From the NCBI GenBank assembly GCA_025928655.1, contig JAICJC010000019.1, forward strand, positions 1 to 39,481: a stretch of DNA of 39,481 nucleotides, in the 5' to 3' direction. The stretch comes from Thermoleophilia bacterium. Its GTDB lineage: Bacteria > Actinomycetota > Thermoleophilia > Gaiellales > JAICJC01. The position numbers were made by a program, and so were the translations under genes. Shown piece by piece: positions 4,245 through 39,481 of the stretch (position 1 is the stretch's first letter; each line of letters starts with the position of its first letter). The notes under the pieces are model-generated. The model was given only the letters and a program-made list of their open reading frames with translations, was not told the origin of the DNA and did not search any database.

Positions 4245-4352
4245 GGCGAACCAGCCGTGCCCCGACCCGCGCGGGCGCCCGCCCGCCGGGCCTCACCCGC
4301 GGCGCATGCTCGGCGAACGTCTCCCACAGCGCCGCGGCATCCACGCGGCGGC

Positions 4353-5399
4353 CTAGATACCGGCCAGGGTGGCGGCGGGCTCGTCCTCCGCCAGCACGCG
4401 GTGCACGGCCTGCACGGCGGTCGCGCCCTCGCCGACCGCGGCGGCGACACGCTTGACCGAGCCGGAGCGGACGTCGCCGGCCCCGAAGATGCGGGGGACG
4501 CTCGTTTCCGCCGGGAACGGCGGCCGTTGCAGCGGCCACCCGCCGCCGATGTCGGCCCCGGTCAGGAGGAAGCCGTCGCGGTCGCGCGCCAGTCCGGTCG
4601 GCAGCCACCCGGTCAGCGGGCGCGCGCCGATCAGGACGAACAGCGCGTCGGCCGGGACGGTGTCGTCCTTCCCGGTCGCGGTGTCCCGCAGGACGAGTTG
4701 CTCGAGGTGCGCCCCGCCACCGCCGCCGACGACCTCGGTCGCCGTCCGCACGGCGATCCTCGGGGCCGCCCCGATCGCCTGCACCAGGTAGTACGACATG
4801 CCCGTCGCGAGCGAGCGCGACCGGATCAGGATGGTGACGTGCCGGGCGTAGCGGGCCAGATGGAGGGCCGCCTGCCCGGCGGAGTTCCCGCCCCCGACGA
4901 CGAAGACCTCCTTCCCGGCCAGCATCGGGGCCTCGGAGACCGGGCCGCCGTAGAAGACGCCCGCGCCGATCAGCTCGTCGAGCCCCGGGATCTCCAGGCG
5001 CCGGTAGCTCGCGCCGGTCGCGAGGATCACGACCCGGGCGTGGATCGTGCGGCCGTCGGCCAGCGAGAGCGCGAACCCGGCGTCCGACCGCGCGAGCGTG
5101 GTCGCCCGGTGCATGAAGACGAAGTTCGCGCCCAGCGCGGCGGCCTGGTCGTAGGCCTGTTCCGCCAGCCGGCTGCCGCTCACCCCGCGCGCGAAGCCGA
5201 GGTAGTTGCGGATGAGCGAGCTCGAGCGGGCCTGCCCGCCGATGCCGGCCGCGTCCACGACGACGACGCTCAGCCCTTCCGACGCGCCGTAGACAGCTGA
5301 CGACAGCCCGGCCGGCCCCGACCCGACGATCAGCAGGTCGAACGTCCGGTCGTCCAGGATCTCCGGCGCGCCCGCTGCGAGCGCGATCTCGGCGTCAGC
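4353..5399 (-). CDS. TrxR-like FAD/NAD(P) oxidoreductase, C-terminal part (frameshifted gene)
   Basis: This frame carries both nucleotide-binding domains of a thioredoxin-reductase-like flavoprotein: FAD motif GSGPAGL followed by GIGGQARSS, NAD(P) motif VGGGNSAGQAA, and the C-terminal FAD motif IFGAGDVRSGSVKRVA. The redox CxxC of true thioredoxin reductases is absent; the equivalent position reads GVFYGGPVSEAP. It therefore cannot use the usual dithiol relay. Known relatives have the same layout and carry an N-terminal receiver-like or cNMP-like domain. Here that domain is encoded immediately upstream in another frame (5330-6025). A one-base change between about 5385 and 5402 would join RALT to DAEIALAAG. 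No convincing start codon or ribosome site serves this part alone, so it is best read as the second half of one broken gene spanning 4353-6025. Confidence 0.8.
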   Translation of the reverse strand, partial: ADAEIALAAGAPEILDDRTFDLLIVGSGPAGLSSAVYGASEGLSVVVVDAAGIGGQARSSSLIRNYLGFARGVSGSRLAEQAYDQAAALGANFVFMHRATTLARSDAGFALSLADGRTIHARVVILATGASYRRLEIPGLDELIGAGVFYGGPVSEAPMLAGKEVFVVGGGNSAGQAALHLARYARHVTILIRSRSLATGMSYYLVQAIGAAPRIAVRTATEVVGGGGGAHLEQLVLRDTATGKDDTVPADALFVLIGARPLTGWLPTGLARDRDGFLLTGADIGGGWPLQRPPFPAETSVPRIFGAGDVRSGSVKRVAAAVGEGATAVQAVHRVLAEDEPAATLAGI

Positions 5400-6025
5400 G
5401 CCCGGCCGTCCGGCAGCAGCATCAGCGGCAAGCGGGCGTCGGGGCCCACCTTCGCGATGATCTCGCGCCCCTGCTCCGAGTCGGCGAGCGAGAACCGGTG
5501 CGGGACGGCGCAGCTCTCGAACACCGCGCGCAGCTCGTGGGCCCGCCCCGACCATTCCCGGCCGACGATGTGCACGGTGTGCGGCACCAGCCGGCGCTCG
5601 CGCGCCCACTCGAGCAGGAAGCCCGCGATGCCCTCGTGGAACACCTCGTCCGGCGGCGGCCCCGGCTCGAGCAGGAAGTGGTCGATGCGGCCGAGTCCCA
5701 TCCCAGCGCGGATCGTGGCCGCCTCGTCCGGATCTGTCCACACGTTCGGGGAGATGAGCAGCGCCCGCGTCGCATGGGGATGGTCGCGCCGCGCGTGGTC
5801 GAAGAGCCCGCCATCCGCCCCGTCGAGCGCTCCCGGCCCGGCCAGCACGAGCGCGACGTCGGCGCCGTCGGCGGCCAGCCGGTCGAGCAGGTCGCCGCCC
5901 TCGTCCGGGCTGCGGACGGGCTCGATCCGGTAGTGGTTGGCGTAGCGCTCGGCGCGCTGGTTTCGGAGGCGCGTGAACGCGTCCGGATCCTCGCCGCCGA
6001 TCGCGATGATCACGGGTGGGGCCAT
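5330..6025 (-). CDS. N-terminal regulatory domain of the same flavoprotein (frameshifted)
   Basis: From ATG 6025 the frame encodes about 210 meaningful residues starting MAPPVIIAIGGEDPDAF. They resemble the receiver-like N-terminal half of two-domain TrxR-like flavoproteins: an alpha/beta domain, then a glutaredoxin-like segment with VPHTVHIVGREWS and MLLPDGRALT. After about position 5393 the frame turns into Arg/Ser-rich nonsense, while the flavin domain continues in another frame. ATG 6025 is chosen because homology starts there; further upstream the frame is low-complexity Arg. A -10-like TAGGGT (6031-6036) lies 5 bases before the ATG. The upstream flippase-like gene ends 17 bases away, so read-through transcription is also possible. 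Intact, the full protein would be about 555 residues. Confidence 0.7.
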   Translation of the reverse strand: MAPPVIIAIGGEDPDAFTRLRNQRAERYANHYRIEPVRSPDEGGDLLDRLAADGADVALVLAGPGALDGADGGLFDHARRDHPHATRALLISPNVWTDPDEAATIRAGMGLGRIDHFLLEPGPPPDEVFHEGIAGFLLEWARERRLVPHTVHIVGREWSGRAHELRAVFESCAVPHRFSLADSEQGREIIAKVGPDARLPLMLLPDGRALTPRSRSQRARRRSWTTGRSTC

Positions 6026-38905: not shown

Positions 38906-39295
38906 ATGAGTGGCTTTACCAAGACCAATCTGCGCCGGGTGGAGGACCAGGCCCCGAACTTCGGGATGCCGTCCGAGCTGCACGCCCGCTTCGCGCGCAC
39001 CCCGATCGAGGGCGAGACGCTCGGCCTGAGCCTCTTCTCGCTCGACCCCAACTTCCGCATCCCCTTCGGCCACAAGCATGTGGGCCAGGAGGAGGTGTAC
39101 GTGGTCATCTCCGGCTCGGGCCGGGTGAAGGTCGGCGACGAGATCGTCGAGCTGGCCCAGTGGGACGCCATCCGCTTCGACAAGGACACCATGCGCGCCG
39201 TCGAGGCGGGCCCCGACGGGATCGAGTACGTGGCGTTCGGCGCCGGCGAGGATCCCTCCGAGGTCGAGATGGACCAGGGCTGGTGGACGGACTAG
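38906..39295 (+). CDS. Small single-domain cupin protein
   Basis: A 129-residue RmlC-like cupin. The first motif GHKHVGQEEVYVVISGSGRVKVGDE supplies the usual His-x-His and Glu metal ligands. The second motif around AIRFDKDTMRAVEAG lacks a clear His, so metal binding may be partial. Such proteins act as isomerases, dioxygenases or ligand sensors. ATG 38906 is the start, 50 bases from the divergent SDR start. The TAG stop (39293-39295) lies inside the left arm of an inverted repeat bounding the 39292-39458 element. Confidence 0.8.
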   Translation: MSGFTKTNLRRVEDQAPNFGMPSELHARFARTPIEGETLGLSLFSLDPNFRIPFGHKHVGQEEVYVVISGSGRVKVGDEIVELAQWDAIRFDKDTMRAVEAGPDGIEYVAFGAGEDPSEVEMDQGWWTD

Positions 39296-39458
39296 TGGGT
39301 CGTCAGGTGACGTTGGTGGTGTCGACGGCGAGCGAAACCCGAGCAGCGCACGGACGCAGGGAGGCCCGATATCGGGAATATCGGGCCGACCGAGGACACC
39401 GCGATGCGACGGTTTGCAGCCGCCGGAACCCGGCAAACGTTGCCTGACGCTCCACTAG
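39292..39458. repeat. 167-bp element bounded by 23-bp imperfect inverted repeats
   Basis: The left arm (39292-39314) and the reverse complement of the right arm (39436-39458) match at 19 of 23 positions, both starting CTAGTGG and ending ACGTT. Inside are a 9-base hairpin GGCCCGATA/TATCGGGCC (39363-39371 and 39379-39387) and a pairing GGTGTC/GACACC (39318-39323 and 39395-39400). No ORF is present. It may be a MITE-like element or a structured RNA; see findings. The rest of the window, to 39481, shows nothing recognisable. Confidence 0.6.
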
Positions 39459-39481
39459 CCGCCGAGGCCCCGAAGCTCGCG

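Follow-up and report, generated by a model that had tools for sequence, protein, structure and literature searches.

A dispersed CTAG-inserting element of Thermoleophilia, very probably a mini-transposon, with a fold conserved on one strand

The window analysed here, a stretch of 39,481 nucleotides, is the entire contig C188 from the draft genome (3.69 Mb, 193 contigs, 82% complete) of a Thermoleophilia bacterium. Near its right end lies a 167-base element (39292..39458, + strand, which is also the strand of its core and putative RNA) that has 23-base arms, a CTAG at either end (both included in these coordinates), and an inner hairpin. The element adjoins a cupin gene (38906..39295, +), whose product scores 27.1 bits against Pfam Cupin_2, just under the cut-off of 27.2, and whose stop codon (TAG, 39293-39295) falls inside the left arm. 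An initial annotation, made without database searches, had described the arms, the hairpin, the CTAG ends, and the position of the stop, all of which were confirmed by direct reading. It proposed either a miniature inverted-repeat transposable element (MITE) that had supplied the stop codon of the cupin gene, or a structured RNA.

The left terminal inverted repeat, CTAGTGGGTCGTCAGGTGACGTT (39292..39314, +), is paired with the right one (39436..39458, - strand) at 19 of 23 positions, with three of the four mismatches being G-U, and both repeats are supported by direct reading, other copies, and arm scoring. The left CTAG (39292..39295), which contains the cupin stop, is the target site, and the right CTAG (39455..39458) is its duplication, of either 4 bp or the TA within CTAG; neither has a strand. 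The conserved core between the arms (39327..39424, +) matches our covariance model of a structured RNA, R1, at 103.8 bits (E-value 1.5e-18), a score that is not independent because this copy is a member of the R1 training set. Within the core, an apical hairpin of 10 pairs with a 5-base loop (39363..39387, +; 39363-39372 with 39378-39387) is accompanied by internal loops that are nearly invariant across copies, with the consensus AAGGACGCAGGGAG on the 5' side (39350..39363, +) and GACYGAGGACG, which carries tandem G-A motifs, on the 3' side (39388..39398, +). A transposase gene cannot fit in an element of this size.

The right end of the element is 23 bases short of the end of contig C188. Another contig, C93, begins within the same element and has the same right flank, an overlap of 144 bases that allows the two to be joined. 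C93 differs from the window at positions 39351 (A), 39413 (G), and 39450 (A), and at all three nearly all other copies with the same type of ends (A-type) agree with C93; the window bases may therefore be assembly errors near a contig end. With A at 39450, the arms match at 20 of 23 positions and all three remaining differences are G-U. Beyond the window end at 39481, C93 continues into a gene that by eye resembles a 2Fe-2S subunit.

Further copies and empty sites, which the initial annotation had suggested looking for, were both found. A sequence search returned 36 matches to the element in its own genome, far beyond chance, and R1 likewise found 36 matches to the core. About 11 of the copies are A-type, being 92-99% identical over the parts present and having unrelated flanks. 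The copy in the window is one of these and is recent. Several contigs begin or stop within an A-type copy; the family is a contig-breaking repeat in Thermoleophilia genomes. For about 20 of the matches, the likeness is confined to the 98-base core and the terminal inverted repeats are different, the commonest of these (B-type) beginning with CTAGATGRTTGAT. A core variant with two extra hairpins, about 94% identical, is found behind three types of ends (L014, L035, L023), which points to an exchange of ends and cores. The two-hairpin module, GAAGCTGTCAAGGGCGGATGCCCTTGACAGCGGTCCGAGGCGTCTGCGATCACGCAGACGCC, is inserted in the cores of L014, L023, and L035, and also of L025 and L031, with differing ends. 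Near position 1500 of L362 (G195) there is an element of about 60 bp that consists of the arms alone, CTAGTGCCGTGTCAGG...CCGACACGGCACTAA, and is apparently a copy that has lost its core.

A search with the joined flanks found the window locus uninterrupted in a genome of the same genus (G002), where GACCGACTAGCCCCCGAGG with a single CTAG corresponds to GACGGACTAG, the element, and CTAGCCGCCGAGG in the window with two. This agrees with the earlier suggestion that the CTAG ends favour transposition. Further empty sites were identified for other loci of the own genome within the genus and, in another genus of the order, for copies such as the one between atpB and atpE. The element is thus dispersed, inserting at CTAG or a near variant with duplication of CTAG or its inner TA; duplications of 4 bp and of TA are not separable because CTAG is palindromic, and the empty sites would look the same had the element entered at CT^AG with no duplication. 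The MITE part of the initial proposal is accordingly borne out by the dispersed copies, the unrelated flanks, and the empty site, whereas its claim about the stop codon is not: the empty site already reads GAC TAG, CTAG being the target, and the element therefore did not supply the cupin stop. G002 has a copy of its own behind the same gene as L047, with different ends and in reversed orientation, so insertion at this spot probably took place twice.

Of 61 genomes searched, made up of the own genome and others of its genus, family, and order (class Thermoleophilia), 38 contain the core, with up to 37 copies per genome. Among the matches listed by a pattern scan of public genomes, it is found almost only in records assigned to Thermoleophilia or simply to Actinomycetota, and Gaiellaceae, Solirubrobacterales, and Miltoncostaeaceae are among its carriers. 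Elsewhere in the phylum the core is rarer. Of 247 genomes sampled across the phylum, 17 have it, several of them from one family outside the class. Some arms in this family resemble the A-type (GTCAGGTGACGTTGG...CGGCAAACGTTG), a sequence likeness that suggests a spread of A-type elements by horizontal transfer. Viral contigs and plasmids were also searched, with zero matches.

Strong covariation across the order supports the structured-RNA proposal. Among 18 copies from the own genome, double-sided changes are seen in 10 of 28 pairs. In 74 matches from relatives, 25 of the 28 pairs have double-sided changes, including all 10 pairs of the apical hairpin (helix 7), and 96.0% of the cells are paired, compared to 75.4% in shuffles. 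The covariation score of the relatives is 0.532, against 0.173 for shuffles and at most 0.073 for slid controls. The purine-rich strands of the internal loops, AAGGACGCAGGGAG and GACYGAGGACG, show little variation and together build two tandem G-A motifs that flank a 3 by 2 loop. Wobble pairs on the core strand are strongly biased to G-U, a pattern which, for the arms, the initial annotation had taken to favour selection on RNA: the arms contain 114 G-U versus 12 A-C (36 versus 4 in the own genus alone), with an arm finder that scores G-U and A-C alike, and the cores of the relatives contain 120 versus 17. Since copies in the own genome lie in all orientations to genes, the transcription direction of the neighbours does not explain this excess. 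The single copy without covariation that had been named as the refuting outcome is excluded by the 36 matches and by the covariation. Throughout the class Thermoleophilia the core is kept as a fold on one strand, whereas the ends differ by subfamily; most simply, it would act as RNA. No Rfam family covers the element, either in own copies at E-values up to 1 or in relatives at the gathering threshold; one match to AsrC adjoins an element, in flanking sequence only. We found no description of the family in this lineage in the open-licence literature. A GATG in the core was considered as a conserved start codon and rejected, as it is not retained in relatives.

The ends of the element are often only a few bases from adjoining stop and start codons, and the start of the next gene often lies directly outside. 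Copies in relatives often occupy the junctions of operons (rps, rpl, atp, nuo, sdh), and the pairs S10-L3, L23-L2, S13-S11, L5-S14, ATP synthase a-c, and SdhA-SdhB are confirmed by Pfam. The gene calls, made by a simple codon-usage script, are approximate. In the arm region that precedes them, 47 of 74 adjoining starts have a Shine-Dalgarno match of 4 nt or more, compared to 10% of control windows. In the own genome, the copies lie in mixed orientation to genes. The S13-S11 and L5-S14 junctions appear to be occupied in different genera (L091, L164, and L286; L095 and L283), L164 and L286 having been placed at ribosomal junctions by reading only. At L5-S14, the element is lacking from other species in the genus of G018, and repeated insertion is therefore likely. 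A subgroup of copies (L079, L084, L090, L097, L172) that share a similar inner left arm, CAGATCGTGC or a near variant, occurs chiefly at ribosomal and nuo junctions and may have been domesticated.

A candidate transposase partner can be named for the B-type repeats. Other genera of the order contain CTAG-flanked elements of the IS982 family of insertion sequences (IS) (NF033520, 140.9 bits, cut-off 130), whose ends CTAG-ATGATTGATGCCACGG and CTAG-ATGCTTGATCGGTAATTC match the B-type repeat ends CTAGATGATTGATTCCACG and GATGRTTGATCGGTAAGTCC. These IS982 elements occur in more than one end variant. The A-type ends of the window, GTGGGTCGTCAGG, differ from the IS982 ends, GATGATTGAT, and the correspondence is thus confined to B-type copies. 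A search for A-type ends, both in the own genome and in those genomes of another class that have similar arms, gave family elements and chance matches only. CTAG-flanked IS630 elements with GTG tips are also present in the order (L157, L158); the ends of the element in the window agree with them in the CTAG target and in the tip, TA followed by GTG, but differ in the remainder. IS630 was rejected as a general partner because it is absent from the own genus.

We consider it very probable that the element is a non-autonomous mini-transposon with a conserved strand-specific fold, the best class for the family being that of the ERIC/Correia-like MITEs; the two readings that were initially set out as alternatives are supported as holding together. 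More tentatively, and with somewhat less than even confidence, we propose that the core represents an undescribed class of structured RNA, a tandem-GA rod that hitch-hikes between the ends of unrelated transposases, class-wide and beyond, and is tolerated in essential operons via the ribosome-binding site of its arm. DDE transposases would recognise the ends and mobilise elements of all end types in trans, one core having been captured behind several kinds of ends. In these GC-rich genomes, CTAG would be found mostly at stops or between genes, and insertion near a stop codon would leave the upstream gene whole, so that copies survive. Survival would also be favoured because the outward-facing arm could often serve as Shine-Dalgarno sequence for the next gene, and the surviving orientation would be the one that places the ribosome-binding arm beside the second gene. 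Least certain is the role of the core, which, as a best guess held with low confidence, would be made as RNA and serve as a protein- or ribonuclease-binding rod that keeps the transcripts of the element stable or harmless.

Several observations weigh against the reading as a mini-transposon with a conserved fold. The alignment of the relatives (A2) was fitted to the model structure, which biases the pair counts towards the model, and copies within one genome are related, so that the wobble counts are not independent events. Two ends bound by one transposase would also covary, an explanation that only the inner core escapes. Of the 104 contexts in relatives where both flanking genes were called, 73 have the core strand antisense to the two neighbours. 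Flanking bases are unequal in many old copies, and the duplication is clear only in young ones. An end-sequence search of the own genome found no autonomous element with A-type ends, and searches of the own genus for PF13358, PF01609, and IS982 transposases were negative, though the own assembly is 82% complete.

Part of the evidence would also fit a fold selected as single-stranded DNA, in which a hairpin of the core strand is recognised in replication or transposition, as for REP or IS200/IS605. Such a fold would account for the strand preference, which in the own genome does not depend on how the genes are oriented, and the empty sites are explained equally well if the element inserts at CT^AG with no duplication; G-T wobble and tandem G-A pairs are moreover stable in DNA too. 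However, the palindromic target suits transposases acting on double-stranded DNA, sister repeats have ends in common with IS982, a DDE transposase, and the G-U excess is large, making selection as single-stranded DNA unlikely in our view. In a plain MITE, two transposase-bound ends would enclose a decayed interior and the fold would have no function. Transposase binding does require terminal repeats to covary, and MITEs derived from IS982 are known (PMC9769881), but the interior of the present family is best conserved while its ends vary, pairs deep in the core covary (all 10 of helix 7), the internal loops are nearly invariant, and G-U far exceeds A-C, all of which renders a functionless interior improbable.

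The copies between rpsM-rpsK, rplE-rpsN, atpB-atpE, and sdhA-sdhB, where one foot of the stem has a stop codon and the other a start codon, could instead indicate a cis-regulatory RNA of the host, a translational coupler of operons that is vertically inherited and not mobile. We regard this as very improbable, because several of the same junctions are empty in neighbouring species, the host genes are unrelated, the wobble bias concerns the strand complementary to the mRNA, and the orientation in the own genome is mixed.

The mobile element with a folded core that we favour has several relatives in kind. ERIC/IRU is a transcribed palindromic intergenic repeat of about 127 bp with TA-termini target duplication, whose RNA fold has an orientation-dependent effect on mRNA (PMC2229807). 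The present family is likewise a short palindromic intergenic repeat with target duplication and an RNA fold, but it is set apart by description: ERIC/IRU belongs to enterobacteria, whereas the present family is found in another lineage and has subfamily-variable ends, a CTAG target, and covarying stems with tandem-GA loops. The Correia/NEMIS repeats of Neisseria (107-155 bp) have inverted repeats, TA-termini duplication, and a hairpin RNA proposed to be an RNase III substrate (PMC2229807). They belong to another phylum, the same review mentions no conserved RNA core of the present kind, and the sequence comparison was made via Rfam only. A short, non-autonomous MITE of Cardinium has IS982 ends and is reported to derive from its parental IS (PMC9769881), whereas the interior of the present family is common to elements with other ends. 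IS630 inserts at TA with TA duplication (PMC2170065), and a CTAG preference is stated in the title of Tenzen and Ohtsubo 1991, cited therein. The element in the window resembles IS630 in its CTAG target, but we found no IS630 with its end sequence.

RNA-folding bacterial MITEs such as ERIC and Correia have been known for decades, and selection on their RNA is hard to demonstrate. The interior covariation described here is strand-specific, class-wide, and independent of the ends, which makes the question of RNA selection testable. For transposon evolution, the apparent swapping of ends among types of transposase would be of interest, as would the insertions in ribosomal and ATP-synthase operons for the study of operon translation. 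Apart from the element, one Thermoleophilia genome (L220, JAOSKU010000001.1) has three Rfam matches to pyrrolysine insertion elements (PYLIS), of the mtbB and mttB type, at 2069-2168, 4302-4401, and 5609-5708, and may thus use pyrrolysine.
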